From contig NZ_LT607750.1 of NCBI RefSeq assembly GCF_900090235.1, positions 2,926,501 to 2,990,500 on the forward strand: a stretch of 64,000 nucleotides of DNA, read 5' to 3'. Positions 2,831 through 13,689 of this stretch are shown here, one piece after another; position 1 is the first letter of the stretch; each line of letters begins with the position of its first letter. The DNA comes from Micromonospora echinaurantiaca. Its GTDB lineage: Bacteria > Actinomycetota > Actinomycetes > Mycobacteriales > Micromonosporaceae. The notes below the pieces were generated by a model. It was not told the origin of the DNA. It saw only the letters and a list, made by a program, of their open reading frames with translations, and ran no database searches. The position numbers and the translations under genes were made by a program.

Positions 2831-3697
2831 TCACTTCTCGTCGAGAAGGTGCTCCAGAAGGAGAGCGGTGACGGCTTGTCGCTGCTCGACGTTGGCGAGG
2901 TGCGCGGCCGGCGAGAGCACCTCGAGACGTGCGTTCGGGATGCTGGCGGCGATCGCGCGACCGTGCTCCGGTGGCGTGGACGGGTCCTCGTGACCTGCGA
3001 TGACGAGTGTTTTCGCGCGGATACGAGGCAGAAGGTCCGTCAGGTCCATGGATTGGATCGCGTTGCAGCAGGATGCGTAGCCTTCTGCGGGTGTAGCCGC
3101 CACCATCGCTCGCATGTCCCGGGCGGTTTCTGGGTGCGCCTGCGCCCAGCCGGGGGTGAACCATCTCGTCACGACGCCGTCGGCCACCGCTTCGACTCCC
3201 TCGCGGCGAACCAGGTCCGCCCGTTCCGCCCAGAACCGCGGCGGTCCAAGGCGGGCGGACGTGCAGCACAGCACGAGCCGGCGGACCCGCTCGGGGGCAT
3301 GCGCTGCCAGCCACATACCCGTCATGCCGCCCAGCGAGAGCCCGCAGAAGTGAGCCGACGAGATGCCCAACCTGTCTAGCAACCGCAGTACGTCGGCGCC
3401 CAGGTCGGCCAGCTCGTAAGGTCCAGGTGGGACGGGTGACCTGCCGTGGCCGCGGTGGTCATAGCGCACCACGCGGAACCGAGCCCGGAGTGCTATCGCC
3501 TGCGGCTCCCACATGGCGTGGGTGCTGCCGAGGCTCGGGGACATGACGACTACCGGGGCATCTTCCGGGCCCTCCACAACGGCGTGAACGTCGACCGTGC
3601 TGCGGTCGGTGAGATCGTGCACGGGATAGGCGACGTTCGGCACGTGCTCCTCCTGCTCGCGGTGCACTGGTCGGTGTGGCTGCGCGGGGTTGCTCAT
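2831..3697 (-). CDS. Alpha/beta hydrolase, 3-oxoadipate enol-lactonase-like
   Basis: A 288-aa alpha/beta hydrolase. The start is ATG 3697, overlapping the thiolase stop as ATGA; a GTG 6 bases upstream is less likely. The nucleophile elbow GLSLGG has Ser at about residue 121, the acid is in AGHEDPSTP and the histidine in PAAHLANVE. RYDHRGHGRS and the overall length fit the PcaD-type 3-oxoadipate enol-lactonase / BpoC-like branch. It is the last gene of a leftward catabolic operon and is translationally coupled to a PcaF-like thiolase, which favours a ring-cleavage or CoA-ester catabolic role. No ring-cleavage dioxygenase or muconate enzyme is present, so the true substrate may be another lactone or a thioester. 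Confidence 0.75.
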   Translation of the reverse strand: MSNPAQPHRPVHREQEEHVPNVAYPVHDLTDRSTVDVHAVVEGPEDAPVVVMSPSLGSTHAMWEPQAIALRARFRVVRYDHRGHGRSPVPPGPYELADLGADVLRLLDRLGISSAHFCGLSLGGMTGMWLAAHAPERVRRLVLCCTSARLGPPRFWAERADLVRREGVEAVADGVVTRWFTPGWAQAHPETARDMRAMVAATPAEGYASCCNAIQSMDLTDLLPRIRAKTLVIAGHEDPSTPPEHGRAIAASIPNARLEVLSPAAHLANVEQRQAVTALLLEHLLDEK

Positions 3698-4878
3698 CAG
3701 CACGCCTCGAGTACGACGGCGAGCCCTTGGCCGGCGCCGATGCAGAGTGCGGCGAGGCCCCAGCCGCCACCACGGCGGCGGAGCTCGTGGGCGAGGCTAC
3801 CGAGAATGCGGGCGCCCGAGGCGCCGAGTGGATGACCGATGGCAATGGCGCCGCCGTTGGGGTTCACGATCTCCGGGTCGAGCTCCTTCCACTCGGCGAG
3901 GCAGGCCAGGGCCTGTGCCGCGAACGCCTCGTTGAGCTCGACGACGGACAGGTCGTCCCAGCCGATTCCGGCGCGCTCCAGCGCGGTATGTGCGGCGCGA
4001 ACGGGGCCGATCCCGAACATGTGGGGATCGACAGCGGCTGCTGCCCGGCCGGCAATGCGGGCCAGCGGCTCACGGCCGATGCGGCGTGCGCCGGCCTCGT
4101 CGCTCAGCAGCAGGCCCGCCGCTCCGTCGTTGAGCGGGGAGGAGTTGCCCGCCGTTACCGTCCCGTCCGAGCGGAAGACCGGTTCGAGCCTGGCGAGCGC
4201 CTGGATCGAGGCGTTCGCGCGGATACCCTCGTCGATGGTCAGTTCGGTTCCATCGACGGGAACGACTTCGTCGTCGTAGCTGCCGTTCTTCCACGCCGCC
4301 GCGGCGCGGGTGTGGCTACGGAGCGCGAACGCGTCCTGGGCCTCGCGGGAGATGCCGTAGATCTCGGCCATCAGCTCCGCGCCCTCACCGAGGCTGATCG
4401 TCCACTCCTGCGGCATGCGCGGATTGACCATGCGCCAGCCCAGGGTTGTCGAGTACAGCGTCTCGTGTCCACGCGGGAAGGCCCGACCCGGTTTGGGCAG
4501 CACCCAGGGCGCGCGGCTCATGGACTCGACTCCACCGGCCAGTGCGAGCGAGGCATCACCGGTTCCGATCGCGCGTGCGGCCTGCACAGCGGCCTCCAGC
4601 CCCGATCCGCACAGCCGGTTGACTGTCACCCCCGGCACGGCCGTCGGTAGTCCGGCGAGCAGGACAGCCATCCGGGCGACGTTCCGGTTCTCTTCACCCG
4701 CTCCGTTGGCATTGCCGAAGACGACCTCGTCGATCATGACCGGATCCAGGTTCGGGGACCGGTCGACGAGGGCTCGCACGACGTGGGCGGCGAGGTCGTC
4801 GGGGCGCACGTCCGCCAGTGCGCCGCCGTAGCGGCCGATGGGTGTACGAGCGGCGTCGAGGATGAAGACGTCGGCCAC
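3697..4878 (-). CDS. Acyl-CoA thiolase (beta-ketoadipyl-CoA thiolase / acetyl-CoA C-acyltransferase type)
   Basis: A full-length 393-aa thiolase. The nucleophilic cysteine is Cys90 in VNRLCGSGLEA, the C-terminal catalytic histidine is in GHPLGASG and the second cysteine is in CIGAGQG. It cleaves a 3-oxoacyl-CoA with CoA to acetyl-CoA and a shortened acyl-CoA. The sequence style resembles PcaF/PaaE 3-oxoadipyl-CoA thiolases more than biosynthetic acetoacetyl-CoA thiolases. The gene sits between a TauE-like permease (80-base gap) and the enol-lactonase-like gene (ATGA overlap). In the locus it would perform the last CoA-dependent cleavage. Chain-length specificity cannot be read from the sequence. 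Confidence 0.85.
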   Translation of the reverse strand: MADVFILDAARTPIGRYGGALADVRPDDLAAHVVRALVDRSPNLDPVMIDEVVFGNANGAGEENRNVARMAVLLAGLPTAVPGVTVNRLCGSGLEAAVQAARAIGTGDASLALAGGVESMSRAPWVLPKPGRAFPRGHETLYSTTLGWRMVNPRMPQEWTISLGEGAELMAEIYGISREAQDAFALRSHTRAAAAWKNGSYDDEVVPVDGTELTIDEGIRANASIQALARLEPVFRSDGTVTAGNSSPLNDGAAGLLLSDEAGARRIGREPLARIAGRAAAAVDPHMFGIGPVRAAHTALERAGIGWDDLSVVELNEAFAAQALACLAEWKELDPEIVNPNGGAIAIGHPLGASGARILGSLAHELRRRGGGWGLAALCIGAGQGLAVVLEAC

Positions 4879-4958: not shown

Positions 4959-5678
4959 TCATGTCGCCGCCCTGACGAGCAGGGCCGTGGCGGCGCAGGC
5001 GGCAACGGCGAGCACGGCCGGCCGGATCCTTCCCGAGTCGAGGTACCGCCGCAGCGGGACGGCAAGTGCGAAGCCGATCGCGACGAACGGAAGCATGAAC
5101 AGGCCGCCGACGACCGAACGCGGTTCGAGGTGGCCGACCAGATGGAGCATGCCCAGCGAGCCGGCTGCGCCGACGACGAAGAAGGCTCCGAGAGTGGCGC
5201 GTAGCGTGGCGCCGCCCGCCCGCTGGTAGATGAGGGCCATCGGCGGCCCGCCGATGGCCGCCGTGGTGCCGGTGACCGCGGCGACGCTTCCGGCGACGGA
5301 CAGGGTCAGGCGTGTCCGGGGCACGTGCACGGGCAGCAGGCTGATACCCACGGCCACCAGCACCGTCATGGCGACGACGGCCTCCATGCCGCGTCCGGGA
5401 AACGCGGCGATCAGCCAGACGCCGCACACCGTGCCGGGGATACGGCCGAGCAGCGCCCACCCCAGACCGGGGAAGTCGATGTGCCGCCACTCCCAGGCCA
5501 GGGTCAGCAGTGGCAGGATCCCGTTGATCACCAGCAAGGACGCGGGCATCAGGGACGGGTCGGCGATGGTGATGACCGGCGCCGCCACGACCCCCAGGCC
5601 GAAGCCCACGCAGCTCTGCACGATCGCTCCGACGCACGCGGCGATCCCGACGACAAGGAGCAGCTGGTAGCTGAACAT
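4959..5678 (-). CDS. TauE/SafE-family membrane permease
   Basis: A 239-aa integral membrane protein with about seven or eight hydrophobic helices and two similar halves. The first helix pair contains VQSCVGFGLGVVAAP, and the second half has GTTAAIGGPPMALIYQ, the twin re-entrant motifs of the sulfite exporter TauE/SafE (anion permease) family. Members export sulfite or sulfoacetate or move organic anions. Here it lies between an acyl-CoA mutase (6-base gap) and a thiolase, so it may export a by-product or move a carboxylate used by the pathway. No sulfur-metabolism enzyme is nearby, so the substrate is unknown. Confidence 0.8.
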   Translation of the reverse strand: MFSYQLLLVVGIAACVGAIVQSCVGFGLGVVAAPVITIADPSLMPASLLVINGILPLLTLAWEWRHIDFPGLGWALLGRIPGTVCGVWLIAAFPGRGMEAVVAMTVLVAVGISLLPVHVPRTRLTLSVAGSVAAVTGTTAAIGGPPMALIYQRAGGATLRATLGAFFVVGAAGSLGMLHLVGHLEPRSVVGGLFMLPFVAIGFALAVPLRRYLDSGRIRPAVLAVAACAATALLVRAAT

Positions 5679-5684
5679 CGGCGG

Positions 5685-7211
5685 TCAGTAGGAGGTGCTC
5701 GGTGTCCACGGTCCGTGGACGGTGCGGAGCCGGGCGACGATCTCCCCCACCGTGGCGTACGCCCGGATGGCGTCGATACATGCCGGCATGATGTTGTCCC
5801 CGGCTTCCGCCGCGGCGGTGAGGTCGTCGAGGGCCACGGCGACGGCCCGCGCGTCGCGGCGCTTCCGCAGCGCGACCAGCGACCGCACCTGGGCCTTCTC
5901 CAGTGCCGGGTCGACCCGGAACACATCCAGCGGCTCGGTCTCGGCCGGGTACCGGTTGACGCCCACGACAATCCGCTCGCCGGTCTCGATCTGGCGGGCG
6001 TAGGCGTAGGCCGCGTCGGACAGTTCGCGCGCGAACCACCCGGACTCGATGCACGCCAGCGCGCCACCGCGCTGTTCGATGCGGCTCATCTCATCGACGA
6101 TGCGCCGCTCGAGGTCGTCGGTGAGCGACTCGACGGCGTAGGAGCCGGCCAGCGGGTCGAGGGAGTCCACCAGGCCGGTCTCGTTCGCCACGACCTGCTG
6201 GGTGCGTAGCGCGAGGGTCGCGGCTGCCTCGGTGGGGACCCCGAGTGCCTCGTCGTAGGCGGACACGTGCAGGGTCTGCACGCCGGCCAGCGCGGCGGCG
6301 AGCGTTTCCACCGTCGTCCGTGCCACGTTGTTCAGTGGCTGCTGGGCGGTCAGCGTCGAGCCGGCGGTGAACGCGAAGATGCGCAGTTGTTGCGAGCGTG
6401 GGTCGCGGGTGCCGTAGGTGTCTCGCATGAGCCTGGCCCAGACCCGGCGCGCCGCGCGGAGTTTCGCCACCTCAGGCAGGAAGTCCATGGTGATGGCGAG
6501 GAACGTGAACAGTGTCGGCGCAACCTCGTCGACCGCGACCCCGCGCCGGACCGCCTCATCGAGGTAGGCGCGGGCGTTGGCGAAGGTGAAAGCGATCTCC
6601 TGGACGGCGTCGGCGCCGGATTCCCGGATGTGGTACCCGGACATGGCCAGCGGAACCCAGGTCGGGACCTTGCGGGCGACGTACTCGATGGTGTCGACCG
6701 CGAGGCGCAGGGACGGCTCGGGCGGGAAGATCTGGGTGCCGCGGGCGATGAACTCCTTGAGCACGTCGTTCTGGATGAACATGCCGAACTCGCCCGGGTC
6801 GACACCGCGCTTCTCGGCCAGCGCGACGAACATCGCCGCCCAGACGTAGCCGACGGAGTTGGCGGTGGTGCGCACCTGGGAGATGGACTCCAGCGGGATG
6901 CCGTCCATGAGGATCTCGATGTCGGCCAGCGAGTCGATGGCGACGCCGACCCGGCCCACCTCGCCGAGCGCCCGCGGGTCGTCAGAATCCAGGCCCATCT
7001 GCGTGGGGAGGTCGAGCGCGACGGAGAAGCCGGTCACCCCGGCTTCCAGTAGCGCCTTGAACCGACGGTTGGAGTCGGCCGCGGTGCCGAAGCCCGCGTA
7101 CTGTCCCATGATCCAGGGCTTGGGCTCGGCCGAAACCCCGCGCGTGTACGGATACTCCCCGGGTCGCTCAGCCCCGGCCGGGGCGTAGTCCACCTTGAGG
7201 CGGCGCATCAC
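5685..7211 (-). CDS. B12-type acyl-CoA mutase, large (substrate-binding) subunit; unusual active site
   Basis: A 508-aa member of the methylmalonyl-CoA mutase (MCM) large-subunit family, covering only the TIM-barrel catalytic domain. Seen are QYAGFGTA (37-44), an IQND segment (146-149), FPPEPSLRL (162-170), SGYHIRESGA with the conserved His at 194, and DPLAGSYAVESLT. The DxHxxG B12-binding domain is absent, as in split isobutyryl-, 2-hydroxyisobutyryl- and archaeal-type mutases, but no small subunit gene lies in the window. By ungapped alignment, the position of MCM Tyr89 is Ala28 and the usual SMTxN segment reads VRTTANS (Arg114 where Ser is normal). The Arg207 equivalent (Arg157) is kept. 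The start ATG 7211 overlaps the ligase stop (ATGA). Substrate undetermined. Confidence 0.85.
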   Translation of the reverse strand: MMRRLKVDYAPAGAERPGEYPYTRGVSAEPKPWIMGQYAGFGTAADSNRRFKALLEAGVTGFSVALDLPTQMGLDSDDPRALGEVGRVGVAIDSLADIEILMDGIPLESISQVRTTANSVGYVWAAMFVALAEKRGVDPGEFGMFIQNDVLKEFIARGTQIFPPEPSLRLAVDTIEYVARKVPTWVPLAMSGYHIRESGADAVQEIAFTFANARAYLDEAVRRGVAVDEVAPTLFTFLAITMDFLPEVAKLRAARRVWARLMRDTYGTRDPRSQQLRIFAFTAGSTLTAQQPLNNVARTTVETLAAALAGVQTLHVSAYDEALGVPTEAAATLALRTQQVVANETGLVDSLDPLAGSYAVESLTDDLERRIVDEMSRIEQRGGALACIESGWFARELSDAAYAYARQIETGERIVVGVNRYPAETEPLDVFRVDPALEKAQVRSLVALRKRRDARAVAVALDDLTAAAEAGDNIMPACIDAIRAYATVGEIVARLRTVHGPWTPSTSY

Positions 7212-8755
7212 TGACCAGCCGCCTCGGTGGCGAGCCGCTCGCGGAGGAACTTCTTGGCGATCTTGCCCGTGGAGCTGAGCGGAAGGCTGTCGACCCGGCG
7301 CAGCTCCTTGGGTTTCTTGTACGACGACAACCGGCGGCGGCAGTGCTCGAGCACCTGTTCGTCGGTGACCGTGGCCGCGTCGTGCACGGTGTAGAGCGCG
7401 GTGACCCGCTGGCCCCAGTCCGGATCGTCCACGCCGAGCACGGCGACCTCGGCGACGCCCGGCACCTCCGCGATGACGTCCTCCACCTCGCGGGGGTAGA
7501 TGTTGTATCCGCCGGAGATGATCATGTCACCCTTGCGGTCGACGAGGTAGAGCCGGCTCTCCGCGTCGAGCCAGCCGAGGTCGCCGGTGTGCAGCCAGCC
7601 GTCGTGGACCGCCTTGGACAGGTCGTCGCGGCCCTCGGCGTTCCAGTAGCCGCGCATCACGTGGTCGCCCCGGGTTATCACCTCGCCGATCTCGCCGGCG
7701 GGCAGCCGCCGGCCAGACCCGTCCACGACGGCCAGTTCCACGCCCAGCGCGGGCCGACCGGCCGAGGTGAGCAGCTGCGGATCGTCGGCGAGGCCCCGCG
7801 CGTGATCGGCCGCGTCGAGCAGCGTGACCGGTGGGATCGCCTCCACCAGGCCGTAGTACTGCACGAGGTGCGGGGTGAGGCGTTCGTACGCCTGGCGCAT
7901 CTGCTCCGGGGGCATCGGGGCGCCGGCGTAACTGAGCATCTTCAGCCCGGCCAGCCGCTGACGGTCGAGGTCGGGCCGGGCGAGCAGCCGGGCGACCATC
8001 GTCGGGACGAGTGCGGTGTGGGTGGCACCCCGCTGCTCCACGGCCGCGACGAACTCGTCCGGGTCCCACGACGGCAGAATCAGCTGGGTCGCGCCGGCCA
8101 CCAGGAACGGCAGGACGAACAGCCCGCTGGTGTGGGTGATCGGCCCGGCGTGCACGTAGACGTCGTCGGGTCCGGGGCGTCCGGCGAGCACGTCGTAGCT
8201 CATGTTCACCAGGCTGGCGAACCAGTTGCGGTGCGTCCGCAGGGCGCCCTTCGGGTGGCCGGTGGTGCCGCTCGAATAGTGCAGCCCGCACAGCGTGTCC
8301 ACGTCGAGTGGCGCCAGCGCGGCGGTGCTCGCATCCGCCAGCAGCCGTTCATACGCCGTGCCGGGGCCGTCGCCGACGACGACGAGTCGGCCGGCAAAGG
8401 CCGAGCACAGCGACTCCGCCTGCTCGGCGAAGCGGGCTTCGTAGATGAGCGCCGCCGCGCCGCAGTCGTCAGCGATCCGCGCCCAGTCGTCGGGGTGCAG
8501 CCGGTAGTTGAGCGCGACGCGTACCAGGCCGGCGCTGCGGATGGCCAGGTCGGTCTCCACGTAGCGGTTCTGGTTGGACTGCAGGTCGAGCACCCGGTCG
8601 CCCGGTCGCAGCCCCATGGCGCGCAGCGCGTTCGCCAGCCGGACGACCCGGTCGCCGAGCTCGGCGAAGGTCAGGCTGCCCCCGGGTCCGTCCACCGCCA
8701 CCCGGGTGCCGTACCGCTGAGCTGACCGGGCCACGAGCTGACCGATGTCCCTCAT
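7208..8755 (-). CDS. AMP-dependent acyl-CoA ligase
   Basis: A 515-aa ANL-superfamily synthetase. Motif A is YSSGTTGHPKGA (about 182-193). The hinge and core motifs follow as GYWNAEGR, LHTGDLGWLD (about 391-400) and DRKGDMIISGGYNIYP. The catalytic lysine sits in the C-terminal LSSTGKIAKKFLRE. It activates a carboxylic acid to its CoA thioester with ATP, via an acyl-adenylate. It most resembles medium-chain or aromatic-acid ligases (FadD/FcsA style). Its stop overlaps the mutase start (ATGA) and the monooxygenase gene ends 18 bases upstream, so ligase and mutase are translationally coupled. That coupling makes the ligase product the likely mutase substrate or its precursor. Confidence 0.85.
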   Translation of the reverse strand: MRDIGQLVARSAQRYGTRVAVDGPGGSLTFAELGDRVVRLANALRAMGLRPGDRVLDLQSNQNRYVETDLAIRSAGLVRVALNYRLHPDDWARIADDCGAAALIYEARFAEQAESLCSAFAGRLVVVGDGPGTAYERLLADASTAALAPLDVDTLCGLHYSSGTTGHPKGALRTHRNWFASLVNMSYDVLAGRPGPDDVYVHAGPITHTSGLFVLPFLVAGATQLILPSWDPDEFVAAVEQRGATHTALVPTMVARLLARPDLDRQRLAGLKMLSYAGAPMPPEQMRQAYERLTPHLVQYYGLVEAIPPVTLLDAADHARGLADDPQLLTSAGRPALGVELAVVDGSGRRLPAGEIGEVITRGDHVMRGYWNAEGRDDLSKAVHDGWLHTGDLGWLDAESRLYLVDRKGDMIISGGYNIYPREVEDVIAEVPGVAEVAVLGVDDPDWGQRVTALYTVHDAATVTDEQVLEHCRRRLSSYKKPKELRRVDSLPLSSTGKIAKKFLRERLATEAAGQ

Positions 8756-8773: not shown

Positions 8774-10006
8774 TCAGACGAGGGTCGGTGCCGCAGCCGC
8801 CGCCGAGCGGTCGAGCGGGGCGTCGGCCGCCGAGACCACGTCGTAGCCCCACAGCCAGCCGCGCAGCCACAGGCCGTACGGGTCGGTCTTGGCGCGTTCG
8901 CGCATCTGGTCGTTGCGCCTGGCGATGGCGGCCGGGTCGCTGAGGTGGTAGACGGTCGCCATCTCCCGGGAGACCCGGGCGACCTCCGCCACCCGGCCCC
9001 ACCGGCGCTGCTGGAACTCGCGAAGTGACTCGGCGACGGCATCGACCGAGCCGCGGGCAAGGCACCGCGACAGCACGTACGCGTCCTCGAGCGCCTGGGT
9101 GGCGCCGTTGGCGAGGAACGGCCAGATCGGGTGCGCCGCGTCGCCCAGCAGCGCGATCCGCCCCACTGTCCACTGCTCCAGCAGCGGCCGGGTGAAGATG
9201 CCGGTGATGAACGGCGTCTCGATGGCGTTGACGATGGTGGCCAGCGGCTCGGTGGCGCCCGCGTACGAGCGACGGAGGTCCTCGATGTCGCCACGGGACT
9301 CCCACGCCTCCGAGCGGACCTCGCCGGACGGTACGGTGCCGACGAAGTTCATGTGGGTGCCACCGTTGACCCAGAAGACGACGCCGCTGCGGTCGGGCCC
9401 CCACCAGGCCGTGCAGCTCGGAGGAACGTCCACGCCCTCGAGGCGCTCGCGCGGGATGAGTGCCCGCCAACACACGTAACCGGAGGCATCCGGCTGCGTG
9501 GCGCCGAAGAGCTCCGCGCGCAGGGTCGATCGGATGCCGTCGGCTCCGATGACCACGTCCGCCTCGACCACGTCGCCCGCTGCGGTGGTGAGCCGGACGA
9601 CGTTTTCGTCCTGCTCCACCCCGGTGACGGCGGTGCCCAGTCGCAGCCGGGTGCGCACCACGGCCTTGTGCAGGATGTCGAGGAGGTGGTGGCGGTGGAT
9701 GTGGAAGAACGGCGCGCCGTAGGTCTTCTCACCCCACTCGCCGGCGCGCGTCTCCAGGATCAGCTCGCCGTCTTCGATGTCGTAGTAGTAGTTGCCCCCG
9801 CTGACGACGCCCCGCGCCCGCAGCTCGTCCTCCAGGCCGAGGTGCCGCAGCAGGCGGGCGCCGTTGTTGGAGACCTGGATACCCGCGCCGATCTCCGTGA
9901 ACTCGGGCGCCTGCTCCAGCAGGACGATGTCGTCGAAGCCCTGCCGCTCCAGGCACACGGCGGTGGCCAGTCCTCCGATTCCGCCGCCCACAATCGCAAT
10001 CCGCAT
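8774..10006 (-). CDS. FAD-dependent monooxygenase (salicylate / 6-hydroxynicotinate hydroxylase type)
   Basis: A 410-aa class A flavoprotein hydroxylase. The Rossmann FAD motif GGGIGG is at residues 7-12, the DG motif is in VVIGADGIRSTLR and the second FAD motif is GRIALLGDAAHP. The segment after GDAAHP reads IWPFLANGA, where most relatives have MTPYLAQGA, so the flavin/substrate loop differs. Enzymes of this type add one oxygen to an aromatic ring or carry out oxidative decarboxylation with NAD(P)H. It lies between the transporter ATPase (82-base gap) and the CoA ligase. It could hydroxylate the imported compound before CoA activation; the aromatic nature of that compound is inferred. Confidence 0.8.
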   Translation of the reverse strand: MRIAIVGGGIGGLATAVCLERQGFDDIVLLEQAPEFTEIGAGIQVSNNGARLLRHLGLEDELRARGVVSGGNYYYDIEDGELILETRAGEWGEKTYGAPFFHIHRHHLLDILHKAVVRTRLRLGTAVTGVEQDENVVRLTTAAGDVVEADVVIGADGIRSTLRAELFGATQPDASGYVCWRALIPRERLEGVDVPPSCTAWWGPDRSGVVFWVNGGTHMNFVGTVPSGEVRSEAWESRGDIEDLRRSYAGATEPLATIVNAIETPFITGIFTRPLLEQWTVGRIALLGDAAHPIWPFLANGATQALEDAYVLSRCLARGSVDAVAESLREFQQRRWGRVAEVARVSREMATVYHLSDPAAIARRNDQMRERAKTDPYGLWLRGWLWGYDVVSAADAPLDRSAAAAAPTLV

Positions 10007-10088: not shown

Positions 10089-10853
10089 TCAGCCGGCCGG
10101 GACGGTCGTCTCCTCGGCCAGTCGGGCCCGGATCTCGGTACTCACCGCGTCCAGCTCTGTCTGGCCACCCGCCCGTACCGGTGCGGCGTCGTACTCACAC
10201 AGCACGCGGGCCGGCCGGCCGAGCACGATGACCCGGTTGGCCACGGCGAATGCCTCTTCGATGCTGTGCGTGACGATGACGGCCGATGTCCCCGTCGACT
10301 CGCACAGCTCGACGAAATCGGCGCGCAGGCTACGGGCGGTGACCTCGTCGAGCGCCGAGAAGCTCTCGTCGAGGAAGATCAGCTCCGGCTTCACAGCGAA
10401 CGCGCGTGCCAGCGAGACGCGCTGACGCATTCCGCCACTCAACTGGCTCGGGTACTTGTGCAGGGCGTCCTGCAGATGTACCCGGCCGAGCCACTCCTCG
10501 GCGATCCGCCGTCGTTCGGCCTTCGGTCGCCGCAGGATCTCCAGGCCGACGGCCACATTGCCGAGCGACGTCCGCCACGGCAGCAGCCGCGGCGTCTGGA
10601 AGGCCATGGCGACCCGGCCCTGGAGCTGGGCGTGCTGCGCGTACGGGTCCAGCCCGAGGATTCGAACGCTGCCCGACGTCGGCCGCATCGAACCAACCAG
10701 CAGGGACAGGATGGTCGATTTGCCCGCGCCGGTCCGACCCATCAGCGCCACCCGCTCGCCGGGCCGCAGTCGCATGCTGAACCGGTCGACCGCGCGAAGC
10801 GAGTCGAAACTCACCGAAGCGTGATCGATGTCGATCAACGGTTCCTCAGTCAT
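10089..10853 (-). CDS. ABC transporter ATPase, nitrate/sulfonate/taurine type
   Basis: A 254-aa ATPase with Walker A GRTGAGKS (about 39-46), Q-loop FQTPRLLPW, signature LSGGMRQR, Walker B LIFLDES and the H-loop histidine in VTHS. The PRLLPW Q-loop is characteristic of the SsuB/TauB/NrtD/ThiZ group. The start ATG 10853 overlaps the permease stop (ATGA). Together with the permease and binding protein upstream it forms a complete importer feeding the downstream catabolic enzymes. Confidence 0.88.
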   Translation of the reverse strand: MTEEPLIDIDHASVSFDSLRAVDRFSMRLRPGERVALMGRTGAGKSTILSLLVGSMRPTSGSVRILGLDPYAQHAQLQGRVAMAFQTPRLLPWRTSLGNVAVGLEILRRPKAERRRIAEEWLGRVHLQDALHKYPSQLSGGMRQRVSLARAFAVKPELIFLDESFSALDEVTARSLRADFVELCESTGTSAVIVTHSIEEAFAVANRVIVLGRPARVLCEYDAAPVRAGGQTELDAVSTEIRARLAEETTVPAG

Positions 10854-11713
10854 CGGACGACCGCCTCTCTGCGCCACCTGAGCAGATACCGTTCGGCCAG
10901 ATCGACGACCGCCGTGAGGAGGAAGTTGAACACGATCAACACCACCGTCCAGGCGAAGATCAGGTCGATCCGGAAGTTTGCCTGTGCGAGCCCCATCGAG
11001 TAGCCGACACCAGCCGTCGCACCGATCAGCTCGGCGAACACGAGGATCCGCAGACAGAACGCGCCGGCGCTGCGGAGGGTCATCAGCATGTAGGTCAGCG
11101 ACTGCGGAACGAACAGCACCCGCAGGATCTGCAGGCGGGACGGCCGGAACTGGCCGATCCCCTCCATCAGTTCGTGGTCGATGTTGCGGATGCCCTCGAA
11201 GACCGCGACCACGAAGAACGGGACGCCGATGACGAAGACGATGAAGAAGATCCGCGCCTCGACGCTGTGCAGCCAGATGACCGACACCAGAATCCACGAC
11301 AACGCCGGGACCGCCTGCATGATGCCGAACACCGGCCGCAGCAGCTCGCCGACGGTGGTGCGGAACGCGCCCATCAGCAGGCCGATGACCCAGCCGGCGA
11401 CCATGGCACCCAGCAGCGCCCCGGTGAACCGTAGGACCGTGGCGATGATGTCGCCGCGCTCGTCGCGCAGGATCTCCAGCAGCGCCTGACCGATCGCCGG
11501 GAGGTCCGGGAAGACGTACTCCGGCATGAACAGGCTGGCTATCTGGATCCCGGCCAGCACGACCAGCAGCACCAGAGCGGTCCACAGGTGGGAACGCCGC
11601 GGAGCGAGTCGTCGTAGGCGTCCGCTCGCCGCAGGCGTCGGTGCCGGCCCAGGGGGCGCTTCCGGGTCAGTGTCTTGTCGGATCGGACGGGTGGTGGTTC
11701 CGGTGTTGGGCAA
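10850..11713 (-). CDS. ABC transporter permease, nitrate/sulfonate/taurine type
   Basis: A 287-aa permease with a proline-rich cytoplasmic N-terminus of about 40 residues followed by six membrane segments of the BPD_transp_1 fold. The coupling (EAA) loop is around EGIGQFRPSRLQILRVLFVP. The SsuC/TauC family is suggested by the motif MQAVPALSWI. It is coupled to the ATPase by an ATGA overlap and lies 41 bases after the binding-protein gene. Family members carry sulfonates, nitrate, pyrimidine precursors or aromatic acids, so the substrate cannot be set from the permease. Confidence 0.85.
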   Translation of the reverse strand: MPNTGTTTRPIRQDTDPEAPPGPAPTPAASGRLRRLAPRRSHLWTALVLLVVLAGIQIASLFMPEYVFPDLPAIGQALLEILRDERGDIIATVLRFTGALLGAMVAGWVIGLLMGAFRTTVGELLRPVFGIMQAVPALSWILVSVIWLHSVEARIFFIVFVIGVPFFVVAVFEGIRNIDHELMEGIGQFRPSRLQILRVLFVPQSLTYMLMTLRSAGAFCLRILVFAELIGATAGVGYSMGLAQANFRIDLIFAWTVVLIVFNFLLTAVVDLAERYLLRWRREAVVR

Positions 11714-11754: not shown

Positions 11755-12735
11755 TCAGTTCGATCCGCCGTAGAACCGCGCCGGTGGCTCCTTCTCGTCG
11801 GTGCCGGTCCGGTGGATCAGCGCGAGCTGCTCCTTGAGCTGGGTCACGACCTCACCGTCGACCGGCTTCACGACGAAGGCGTGCACCGACTGCTGCATCA
11901 CGTTGGCCGCGGTTCCCGCCTTGAAGCCCTGCTTGGTGGCGTACTTGTCGGCCTCCTCCGGGTGCTCGTTCAGCCATTGGGCCGCCTCCTGCAGCCGCTC
12001 GACGGCGCGCTGCTCGGCGTCCTTGCTGACGCTGTCACGGACCGCGAGGACGAGCTGCCACCCGGTGCCGAAGGTCTCGCCGGGCTTGGCGTCCGATGAG
12101 CTGAACGCCACCCTCATCCCGGGGTTGGCCCGCACGGCCGAGGTGACGGCCGGTTCCCAGCCGACCGCGAAGTCCGCGGTGCCCGCGGCCACCTGCGTCA
12201 CGCCGCTCTCGGCGTTGGGCACGTTGACGACCTCGAAGTCCTCGCCCTCCTTGACCCCGAACTTGTCGGCGAGCAGGGCCTTGGTGATGCGCCATCCGCC
12301 GCTGGTGGTGATCGCGGCGATGCGCTTGCCCTTGAGGTGCTCGGCTGACGTGATCTCCGACTTGCCGACCAGCGCGGTGGAGTTCGGCGAGACGGTCGCG
12401 GCAATGTGGATCGGTGCGCCCTTCGCGGCCTGGCTCGCGAACACGTCCGGGCCGCCGATGGTCATGTCGGCTTTGCCGGAGAGCACGTCGGTGTACAGCT
12501 GCTGGAGATCGGAGTAGTTGTTGACTTTCAACTGGTCGTCGTTCGCGGCGGTCTCGGCGACGCGGTCGGTCAGGACGACGCTGAAGCCGCGCGTCCACGA
12601 GCCGATCACGTACTGCTTGTCACCGCCTCCACCAGCATCCGAGGCCGCCCCGCATCCGCTCATCGCGAGCGCGAGCCCGGCAACGAGCAGCACGCGGACA
12701 TGTCTTGTCGTCCATCGACTCCGGCCACCACGCAT
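11755..12735 (-). CDS. ABC transporter substrate-binding lipoprotein (SsuA/TauA/NMT1 type)
   Basis: I start at ATG 12735 (326 aa) because GGGAGG sits 6 bases upstream; an earlier in-frame ATG (12759) lacks a site. The lipoprotein signal ends with the lipobox AMSGC, followed by a Gly-rich linker. The mature protein has the periplasmic-binding fold of the NMT1/SsuA group (DLQQLYTDVLSGKADMTIGG near the start of the mature domain). It captures the solute for the coupled permease/ATPase. It is the first gene of the leftward catabolic run, and its promoter must lie in the 120-base gap shared with the divergent IclR gene. Confidence 0.85.
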   Translation of the reverse strand: MRGGRSRWTTRHVRVLLVAGLALAMSGCGAASDAGGGGDKQYVIGSWTRGFSVVLTDRVAETAANDDQLKVNNYSDLQQLYTDVLSGKADMTIGGPDVFASQAAKGAPIHIAATVSPNSTALVGKSEITSAEHLKGKRIAAITTSGGWRITKALLADKFGVKEGEDFEVVNVPNAESGVTQVAAGTADFAVGWEPAVTSAVRANPGMRVAFSSSDAKPGETFGTGWQLVLAVRDSVSKDAEQRAVERLQEAAQWLNEHPEEADKYATKQGFKAGTAANVMQQSVHAFVVKPVDGEVVTQLKEQLALIHRTGTDEKEPPARFYGGSN

Positions 12736-12855
12736 GGGGCGCCTCCCGAAGATTTCCATAATGTGGAGGTTGCTTCTACAAGGTGGAGCCACTGTAAGAT
12801 GCACCACACCAGCAGTCAATAGAGGTCTTCACGTAGCTGACCTGGGGGTAGACGA
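12736..12855. promoter_or_regulatory. Divergent promoter region with candidate IclR operator
   Basis: This 120-base gap separates the divergent binding-protein gene and the IclR gene and is clearly more A/T-rich than its flanks. It contains TCCA-TAATG-TGGA (12755-12767), an interrupted inverted repeat resembling IclR-family TGGAA/TTCCA half-sites. The GTGGAG element recurs about 19 bases further on (12783-12788). Because IclR regulators usually act on their divergent neighbours, this is the likely operator, but the match is short. Confidence 0.4.
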
Positions 12856-13689
12856 GTGAGCGGCGATGGCGCACGTTCAGGAGCGCAGGCGGTGTACCGG
12901 GCGCTCGCCGTGTTGGACGCGTTCAGCTCGGCACGACCAGCAATGACGATCACGGAGCTCGCCGAGGCGACATCACTGACCGCTCCGACCGCGCACCGCA
13001 TCGCACTCGCCCTGGTCGACCGGGGTTTCCTCACACGTGACGAGGTCTCCCGACGGTTCAGCGTCGGCCCCGCCGTGCTCCGGCTGGCGCAGCTGACCGA
13101 CATCGGCCACTCCGCGTTCGCACACATCGGCCCCCTCCTCGAGACCCTCAGAGCGGAGACCGGGGAGACTGTGGGCCTGCACGTACGCGTGGGGACCCGT
13201 CGGGTCTGCGTCCTGGAACTGGAAAGTCCACACCGCGTCCGGGTGGTGTCCGGCATCGGGCACACGTATCCGCTGACAGCGGCTGCGGCGAGCAAGGCAA
13301 TCCTCGCCTGGCTACGACCGGATCAGATCGAATCGGCGCTCGGCGAGGCTCCACCGGAGCTCGATCAGGCGAAGCTCCGCGCCGACCTGCGGCAGGCGCG
13401 CCAGGACGGGTACGCGATCAGTTACGGCGAAACCATTCCCGGCGCGCATGCCGTCGCCGCACCCGTACTCGACTCGAGCGGCGAGGCGACCGCCAGCGTC
13501 AACGTCACCGGACCAGCCGACCGGCTACCGGAGGCACGACTGCGCAAGATCGGCACGGGTCTGTCGCAGAAGCTCCACCTCATACATCAATCGCGCCACG
13601 TTCCCCCACAGACGACCGCCCCGGAGGACTTCGCACATGTTCGCAGTGACGGTGACCAGCGGCTGCTCTCTCGAATGGACAGAGGTTGA
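12856..13689 (+). CDS. IclR-family transcriptional regulator
   Basis: A 277-aa regulator starting at GTG 12856. The N-terminal winged helix (about 10-70) contains AVLDAFSS and the recognition helix region LTAPTAHRIALAL. The C-terminal effector domain has the family features VRVVSGIGHTYPLTAAAASKAILA and GYAISYGETIPGAHAVAAPV. IclR proteins typically sense small aromatic or carboxylic acids and control adjacent catabolic operons. Here it would control the leftward importer/ligase/mutase operon and its own operon with the quinone oxidoreductase, whose start lies inside the last 53 bases of this gene. Confidence 0.88.
   Translation: MSGDGARSGAQAVYRALAVLDAFSSARPAMTITELAEATSLTAPTAHRIALALVDRGFLTRDEVSRRFSVGPAVLRLAQLTDIGHSAFAHIGPLLETLRAETGETVGLHVRVGTRRVCVLELESPHRVRVVSGIGHTYPLTAAAASKAILAWLRPDQIESALGEAPPELDQAKLRADLRQARQDGYAISYGETIPGAHAVAAPVLDSSGEATASVNVTGPADRLPEARLRKIGTGLSQKLHLIHQSRHVPPQTTAPEDFAHVRSDGDQRLLSRMDRG

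Follow-up and report, generated by a model that had tools for sequence, protein, structure and literature searches.

The window analyzed here, a stretch of 64,000 nucleotides, covers positions 2926501-2990500 of the Micromonospora echinaurantiaca genome, which is a single contig of 7.2 Mb. On the minus strand, an open reading frame at 5685..7211 encodes the large subunit of a B12-dependent mutase, with 508 amino acids counted from a GTG codon and 507 from an ATG codon. This ATG overlaps the stop codon of the preceding frame (TGATG), which encodes an AMP-forming acyl-CoA ligase (7208..8755, minus strand; PF00501/PF13193). In a full-length profile search, the mutase matched PF01642 with 602.7 bits (cut-off 22.1) and TIGR00641 with 579.4 bits (cut-off 303.8). 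Both matches run from end to end, and the large-subunit frame proposed in an earlier note on this DNA is thus real. No B12-binding domain is fused to the protein. In the aligned coordinates, its N-terminus is approximately 50-60 residues shorter than those of methylmalonyl-CoA mutase (MCM) from human (2xij) and P. shermanii (1req). The best match in the PDB was HcmA of 2-hydroxyisobutyryl-CoA mutase (HCM; 4r3u, 438 bits), in which the large subunit is likewise a separate chain.

On the same strand, downstream of the mutase, lie a TauE/SafE membrane protein, a probable anion exporter (4959..5678; PF01925, 64.8 bits, cut-off 32.6), a thiolase of the 3-oxoadipyl-CoA thiolase (PcaF) type (3697..4878; above the cut-off of TIGR01930, with NF006551/TIGR02430 as the best models but below theirs), and a PcaD-type enol-lactonase of the alpha/beta hydrolase fold (2831..3703; TIGR02427, 318 bits, cut-off 255.85). 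Upstream of the ligase is a flavin monooxygenase (8774..10006; PF01494) resembling 3-hydroxybenzoate 6-monooxygenase and 6-hydroxynicotinate 3-monooxygenase; its top model, NF006021, stays below the cut-off, and its top PDB matches are 8uiq and 5eow. At E <= 1e-90, the monooxygenase matched one of the 354 genomes of the family, the source genome itself. An ABC transporter follows, consisting of a putative ATPase (10089..10853, its start inferred inside the longer frame 10089-11585), a permease (10850..11713; PF00528) and a substrate-binding protein of the SsuA/NMT1 type (11755..12819; PF09084, TIGR01728 below cut-off). A divergent IclR-family regulator is encoded on the plus strand (12856..13689; PF01614/PF09339, BhcR and PcaR models below cut-off). 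A search of positions 1-26000 of the window gave no ADP-forming ligase.

In a tree with MCM, HCM and the other mutases of the source genome, 27 core sequences formed one group with a support of 100/99, and the addition of three outer sequences (L019, L020 and L124) gave a group at 100/100; in this tree, HCM, L005 and L007 sit on long branches, 18 of the 53 inner forks are unresolved, and the sequences do not include authentic ethylmalonyl- and pivalyl-CoA mutases (ECM and PCM). The window sequence is nested within the core, and the clade is separate from MCM, HCM and the three other mutases of the source genome. The phylogeny proposed in the earlier note thus places the mutase outside the MCM and HCM branches (in a tree lacking authentic ECM and PCM), and this separate clade bears out its suggestion of an uncharacterized specificity. 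MCM identity was rejected on the same placement (100/99) and on a score of 504 bits with the MCM model NF006944, below its cut-off of 876. The ethylmalonyl- and pivalyl-CoA mutases belong to the same family, with their authentic sequences outside our comparison; L007 (fused, 37% identity) may be ECM-like. The closest named match is from Micromonospora sp. LZ34 (97%), followed by other Micromonospora proteins (90-92%). Matches at E <= 1e-170 were found in 10 other genomes among the 354 of the family, and the search of 394 genomes of the class gave 13 other genomes, one of which (G254) holds an outer member at 57%. Each of the 61 near genomes examined, the source genome among them, contains mutase paralogues with an identity of approximately 53% or less. 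Among plasmids, no member of the core clade was found: all 404 records were below 60%, and the best of the 20 listed reached 50%. The named proteins of the clade are entered in databases either as methylmalonyl-CoA mutase, with the addition of family or N-terminal domain, or as acyl-CoA mutase large subunit family.

The earlier note had also observed that no B12-binding subunit is encoded nearby and that the partner must come from elsewhere. A profile search of the genome agrees with both statements: the three TIGR00640 matches (141870, 437786 and 2417191, one of them below cut-off) all lie outside the window, 2926501-2990500. The only standalone small subunit above the cut-off, at C1:141870, adjoins a sucC homologue, and another B12 domain is fused in a 671-residue frame of a different mutase. 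Three large subunits of the genome, that of the window among them, have no B12 domain of their own; if all three are active, they must share the one standalone small subunit, which would be the partner of the mutase. An unlinked small subunit is also a feature of IcmA/IcmB of Streptomyces, which belong to the same family. A TIGR00640 match above the cut-off was present in all 24 mutase-positive genomes searched. At the 33 clade loci, a small subunit was within reach in eight, and in five of these (L012, L017, L021, L118 and L123) it lies beside a sucC homologue; no sucC homologue was seen by the small subunit in L119, L121 or the outer-clade L124, where the small subunit adjoins the mutase. 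A small subunit dedicated to the cluster was rejected on these counts (8/33, with five of eight beside sucC), as the adjacency appears to be incidental.

For the residue analysis, the clade was sampled as the closest 120 of 8000 protein matches plus the fetched loci, giving 147 distinct aligned cores after removal of L006 and L088 (the query again), with L019, L020 and L124 counted in neither clade nor outgroup. In the numbering of P. shermanii MCM, four residues that we take to hold the acyl part of the substrate are all kept: Tyr89 as Tyr38 (in QYAGF), Gln197 as Gln147, Arg207 as Arg157 and His244 as His194. Of these, His244 and Gln197 presumably contact the thioester carbonyl. Gln197, Arg207 and His244 are conserved in 147 of 147 clade sequences, as are Glu247 and Glu370, and Tyr89 is conserved in 146, the exception (L021) being a fragment that does not cover the position. 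The equivalence of His194 and Arg157 with His244 and Arg207, claimed in the earlier note, therefore holds in the alignment with P. shermanii MCM, and the carboxylate-binding arginine is retained throughout the clade. Arg228 of human MCM, which corresponds to Arg157 here, forms a salt bridge with the substrate analogue malonyl-CoA (PMC10356863). The earlier assignment of Tyr89 to Ala28 was an alignment slip across a three-residue deletion. This deletion adjoins Ala28 in the YPTMY segment, which is degenerate in the clade (checked in 150 clade rows, in which the same protein can recur with different ends) and is also lost in L007. With the tyrosine present and the acyl site that of MCM, the enlarged pocket deduced from its loss is not supported.

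The replacements occur elsewhere. Arg87 is changed to Gly and Ser164 to Arg in 146 of 147 sequences (the exception is the fragment L021), Thr195 to Phe in 137, Ser285 to Phe or Tyr in 146, and both His328 and Gln330 to Phe in all 147. At these six positions, 77-81 of the 81 outgroup sequences have the ancestral residue. Further changes are Gly194 to Met or Leu, Asn236 to Val or Thr, and Arg283 to Thr or Ser, although Arg283 is also absent from eight of the 81 outgroup sequences. Arg114, which had been noticed as a substitute for a serine, indeed sits at Ser164. The change from GTIQ to GMFIQ is genuine as a change of the segment, but it contains no insertion and consists of the substitutions G194 to M144 and T195 to F145. 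We assume that Arg87, Ser164, Thr195, Arg283, Ser285, His328 and Gln330 contact CoA or line its channel, and presumably Gly194 and Asn236 do so as well, as in human MCM bound to malonyl-CoA and in the 1REQ structure. Arg87, Ser164, Thr195, Arg283 and Ser285, which we take to bind CoA, are thus all replaced in the clade.

Outside the clade, 133 columns show an invariance of 95% or more, and 99 of these are conserved within it; a looser rule (at least 90% outside, less than 10% inside) gives 30 changed columns; this comparison used 169 clade rows including repeats. Segments assigned to barrel strands contain 19 of the 30 changed columns versus 14 of 93 kept columns (six of the 99 were dropped for want of a P. 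shermanii number), but the segments were assigned after the changes had been seen, and the p-value is therefore descriptive only. The Fisher values take no account of kinship. Because the changed residues are conserved across the clade, they reflect neither chance nor decay. As read from the alignment, the acyl site is of the MCM type, and the changes fall on the presumed CoA-tunnel positions, with bulky Phe in place of Thr, Ser, His and Gln. This pattern does not support the earlier suggestion of a larger acyl-CoA; it indicates that the CoA portion of the substrate is absent or differently bound, with the new Arg114 at Ser164.

The loss of so many otherwise near-invariant residues might also be expected of a catalytically dead or regulatory paralogue, such as the beta chain of MCM. 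We regard this as very improbable, because His244, Gln197, Arg207, Glu247 and Glu370 are retained in every clade sequence and Tyr89 in all but the one fragment. In addition, no second mutase chain was found among the ten window genes scanned (the mutase included), the other PF01642 matches of the genome lie elsewhere, and the start of the gene overlaps the stop codon of a catabolic ligase.

The mutase was compared with characterized enzymes of the family. MCM shares Tyr89, Gln197, Arg207, His244 and a succinyl-like acyl site with the mutase. In contrast, its Arg87, Ser164, Gly194, Thr195, Asn236, Arg283, Ser285, His328 and Gln330 are all replaced, and the mutase lacks three residues of YPTMY, the N-terminal extension and a fused B12 domain. 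In HcmA, Tyr89 is replaced by Ile and Arg207 by Gln, and position 116 is Asp, a pattern that we take to be its Ile90/Asp117/Gln208, whereas the mutase has Tyr38, Arg157 and Ala65. HcmA also retains the listed tunnel positions except Ser285 (Ala). HCM identity was rejected on the absence of the Ile/Asp/Gln pattern and on the separate tree placement. Similarly, the isobutyryl-CoA mutase (ICM) type is presumably marked by Phe and Gln at Tyr89 and Arg207, a pair carried by L005. The mutase has Tyr38 and Arg157 instead and scored 248 bits with the IcmF model NF045497, far below its cut-off of 1500, and ICM (IcmA/IcmF) identity was rejected.

The coupling of mutase and ligase is a common feature of the clade. 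Upstream of the mutase, 29 of the 33 loci encode an AMP-ligase that shares 45% or more identity with that of the window, which answers the neighborhood comparison proposed in the earlier note. The four exceptions are L021 (contig end), L019 (a ligase at 37%), L124 (no ligase match) and L013, where a class III CoA-transferase lies directly upstream of the thiolase and mutase, in the place of the ligases of other loci, and an AMP-ligase (29-35% identity) follows approximately 3 kb downstream. The loci further contain an ADP-forming acyl-CoA synthetase (24 loci), PaaX (12), a BadI/MenB-like hydrolase (12), RidA (10) and a thiolase resembling that of L012 (10, including the window); many contigs are short, and all these counts are lower bounds. 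In many loci the thiolase adjoins the BadI-like gene. The BadI-like protein stays below the cut-offs of both the badI model (300 versus 467.6 bits) and the menB model (320.5 versus 342.7 bits), and by these scores it would be a third, BadI/MenB-like group. The relatives' clusters also hold a benzoate-type CoA ligase (below the cut-off of its model) and a protein with FAD_binding_3 and Oxidored_FMN domains, an architecture that we take to be that of 2-aminobenzoyl-CoA monooxygenase/reductase. The latter protein passes NF006101 (1221 versus 1078 bits), whose curated name is salicylyl-CoA 5-hydroxylase/oxidoreductase, not aminobenzoyl-CoA. RidA is an enamine/imine hydrolase, and its presence suggests an amino substrate. 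A PF04199 gene, presumably of the kynurenine formamidase family, adjoins the mutase in L125 and fits tryptophan or anthranilate as the source. Several clusters also contain two SDR dehydrogenases, which have no role in the scheme below; they could indicate a 4-hydroxy intermediate.

A BadI-like gene (at least 65% identity) was found in 21 of 24 mutase-positive genomes versus none of 18 mutase-negative genomes, the latter being the first printed without a match, mostly of the same genus and not a random draw. The three without it are the source genome, G254 and G243; the mutase contig of G243 begins just upstream of RidA, and the expected place of the BadI-like gene is off the contig. The full-length monooxygenase/reductase showed the same distribution (21/24 versus 0/18), with a 22nd copy in G066 cut by a contig end and the gene absent in the source genome and G254. 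A thiolase 57-66% identical to that of the window was present in 13 of the 18 mutase-negative genomes, and the thiolase thus does not track the mutase. In the class sample, 63 of 394 genomes have the monooxygenase/reductase (E <= 1e-200); they include 11 of the 14 mutase-positive genomes of the class, and the other 52, which are all such genomes of the sample without the mutase, contain a BadI-like gene only once. In that exception (G276), the contig ends inside the AMP-ligase, just before the usual place of the mutase in relatives. Therefore, the mutase tracks the BadI-like hydrolase and not the hydroxylation step. No BadI-like gene was found near the monooxygenase/reductase in five mutase-negative clusters inspected (L135-L139). 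Ten further genes were scanned from three of these clusters; among them, L137 has a thioesterase as well as an FAA hydrolase, and L139 has an enoyl-CoA hydratase.

These distributions bear on the view that the protein is an ordinary acyl-CoA mutase with a further specificity, as the earlier note had it, unrelated to keto-acids and linked to ring opening only through a common catabolic island. Its PF01642/TIGR00641 membership and its occurrence in a source genome devoid of the ring-opening genes speak for this view. However, the co-occurrence with the BadI-like gene is near-perfect across seven families of the class, one contig each from Thermoleophilia and Bacillota (L013 and L019) also has the two genes within 6 kb of each other, and the changed residues are outside the acyl site, where known specificities differ. 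We consider it unlikely.

Instead, we propose, with a probability of roughly 0.5, that the protein serves as large subunit in an AdoCbl mutase whose substrate is a gamma-keto (4-oxo) dicarboxylate formed by the opening of an aromatic ring. The proposal builds on what the sequences contain: the family, the kept acyl site, the changed near-invariant residues, the AMP-ligase coupling, the co-occurrence with ring-opening genes in relatives and the single standalone B12 subunit of the source genome. In the relatives, the monooxygenase/reductase would convert 2-aminobenzoyl-CoA to 2-amino-5-oxocyclohexenecarboxyl-CoA, RidA would yield 2,5-dioxocyclohexanecarboxyl-CoA, and the BadI-like hydrolase would open the ring to 4-oxopimelyl-CoA. 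Entry from salicylyl-CoA would lead to the same dioxo compound with no need for RidA. Because its ketone is in the gamma position, 4-oxopimelyl-CoA is not cut by a thiolase. The mutase would shift the HOOC-CH2CH2-CO- acyl group to the adjacent carbon, converting 4-oxopimelate to 2-methyl-3-oxoadipate as MCM converts succinyl-CoA to methylmalonyl-CoA, with CH2CH2COO- replacing S-CoA. The MCM-like acyl site may fit the succinyl-like -CO-CH2-CH2-COO- group: Tyr38 and Arg157 would hold its carboxylate, Gln147 and His194 the ketone, and Arg114 the distal carboxylate. The 3-oxoadipyl-CoA-type thiolase would cleave the activated product to propionyl-CoA and succinyl-CoA. Among the open-licence papers listed in our literature searches, none was seen to describe such a 4-oxo-acid mutase.

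According to a review covering the Azoarcus evansii 2-aminobenzoyl-CoA pathway, the monooxygenase/reductase product is 2-amino-5-oxocyclohexenecarbonyl-CoA, and the lower part of the anthranilate pathway is named as beta-oxidation (PMC4539516). The relatives' clusters resemble this pathway in the FAD_binding_3 and Oxidored_FMN protein and the benzoate-type CoA ligase. They differ from it in that a BadI-like hydrolase occurs together with the mutase and a thiolase, and the window has none of the upper genes.

The substrate could be the free acid or its CoA ester. In the free-acid version, which we put forward tentatively, the CoA tunnel would be closed, 4-oxopimelate itself would be rearranged, and the enzyme would have been re-used in Micromonospora behind a different aromatic-acid pathway. 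The ADP-forming ligase would run in reverse, releasing 4-oxopimelate and saving ATP, and the AMP-ligase would re-activate 2-methyl-3-oxoadipate with CoA; this scheme gives a reason for two ligases and for the CoA-transferase of L013. Phe at the small tunnel residues together with Arg114 would fit a short carboxylate-bearing tail rather than CoA. Glutamate mutase and 2-methyleneglutarate mutase perform B12-dependent carbon-skeleton rearrangements of free dicarboxylic acids. They would work in a similar way but represent other enzyme families, and no membership is claimed.

Alternatively, the mutase might convert 4-oxopimelyl-CoA, made by the AMP-ligase, to 2-methyl-3-oxoadipyl-CoA and accommodate the CoA tail in a novel manner. 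The chemistry is identical and only the form of the substrate differs; the same scheme would need one ligase turn fewer. To our knowledge, all characterized members of the family use CoA esters, the product of the BadI-like hydrolase would already be one, and the ligase is the most constant neighbor (29/33). An AMP-ligase is equally expected beside a mutase of CoA esters: the acyl-CoA ligase gene hcl lies in one operon with hcmAB, and this operon also contains genes for the small subunit and a G-protein chaperone (PMC7176365). Unlike HcmA, the mutase of the window has no small subunit nearby. Against a CoA thioester, the presumed CoA contacts are replaced, several by Phe, while the acyl site is MCM-like and not enlarged. 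It would also be harder to account for the presence of two ligases near the mutase, or of a CoA-transferase in the case of L013. The residues as aligned favor the free acid, and we hold the CoA ester to be a doubtful choice.

The genome search found no BadI-like gene in the source genome and no full monooxygenase/reductase, only an OYE-domain match at 41%. The substrate of the window enzyme thus need not be 4-oxopimelate. The window thiolase shares 75-77% identity with thiolases from three further genomes, one of which lies in a pca-like cluster beside a PcaD homologue and a Lyase_1 gene, versus 49-60% with the BadI-linked thiolases; an orthologous relationship with the latter was rejected on these values. 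The window thiolase and PcaD resemble ordinary pca-type enzymes. 3-Oxoadipate was considered as the window substrate; by reasoning, its rearranged product would be a 3-oxoglutarate derivative of no use to this thiolase. We read the window as a lower module that may be re-used behind another aromatic-acid route yielding a free oxo-acid, in which the flavin monooxygenase and the PcaD-type lactonase would supply the 4-oxo acid by a different route.

If the proposal is true, a B12 radical step would solve the problem of the gamma-keto acid, which has no direct beta-oxidation, by turning it into a beta-keto acid, so that a thiolase finishes a ring-opening route from anthranilate or salicylate. This would provide a specific lower pathway for aerobic CoA-dependent anthranilate breakdown, for which the review, in the portion cited, has "beta-oxidation" alone (PMC4539516). 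A 4-oxo-acid mutase could also find use with levulinate-type feedstocks. For the family, it would mean that the acyl-CoA mutase fold is able to lose CoA-ester recognition, and that many annotations in the clade, which read methylmalonyl-CoA mutase or acyl-CoA mutase large subunit family, would be incorrect or uninformative.

The genome of M. echinaurantiaca holds a further orphan large subunit (L005, G000:C1:462952-464529), in which our alignment places Phe, Gln, Lys, and Gly at the positions of Tyr89, Arg207, Asn236, and Arg283 of P. shermanii MCM, respectively. Judged by its sequence, it appears to be an isobutyryl-type mutase with oddities of its own. Like the clade of the window's mutase, the 671-aa mutase frame of L007 (G000:C1:436217-437674) lacks the YPTMY segment; it carries a fused B12 domain, retains most of the tunnel residues, and is possibly an ethylmalonyl-CoA mutase.

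The neighboring genes differ in the outer members of the mutase clade. A Thiolase_C_1-type thiolase and a small subunit accompany the mutase in L124, a hydantoinase/oxoprolinase pair is found in L020, and L019, a Bacillota MAG, has a BadI-like gene nearby. These mutases perhaps act on related substrates. The standalone B12 small subunit adjoins a sucC homologue in L150:6780-8961, and such a pair also sits next to the mutase clusters of L012, L017, L021, L118, and L123.

In the window, a strongly coding-biased ORF of 689 aa (573-2642, + strand) gave no matches in Pfam and NCBIfam scans at E ≤ 0.001. A CrtO/CrtI-like FAD protein (L012:1644-3212) scores under the cut-offs of the CrtO/CrtI models, and L014 and L188 each carry a homologue (66%) close to their BadI-like gene. 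Several clusters encode a 3-hydroxybutyrate-dehydrogenase-like SDR upstream of RidA and a second, FabG-like SDR adjoining the monooxygenase/reductase (SDR genes at L012:5266-5991, L116:14986-15744, and L140:13199-13957); neither has a part in the proposed 4-oxo-diacid scheme.

Mutase-negative genomes (L135-L139) contain clusters with a full-length monooxygenase/reductase, RidA, PaaX, and a ligase resembling L009:1506-3029, in which neither a BadI-like gene nor a mutase was found. A thioesterase and an FAA hydrolase are present in L137, and an enoyl-CoA hydratase in L139. These clusters perhaps share the same upper step and lead into a different lower pathway.
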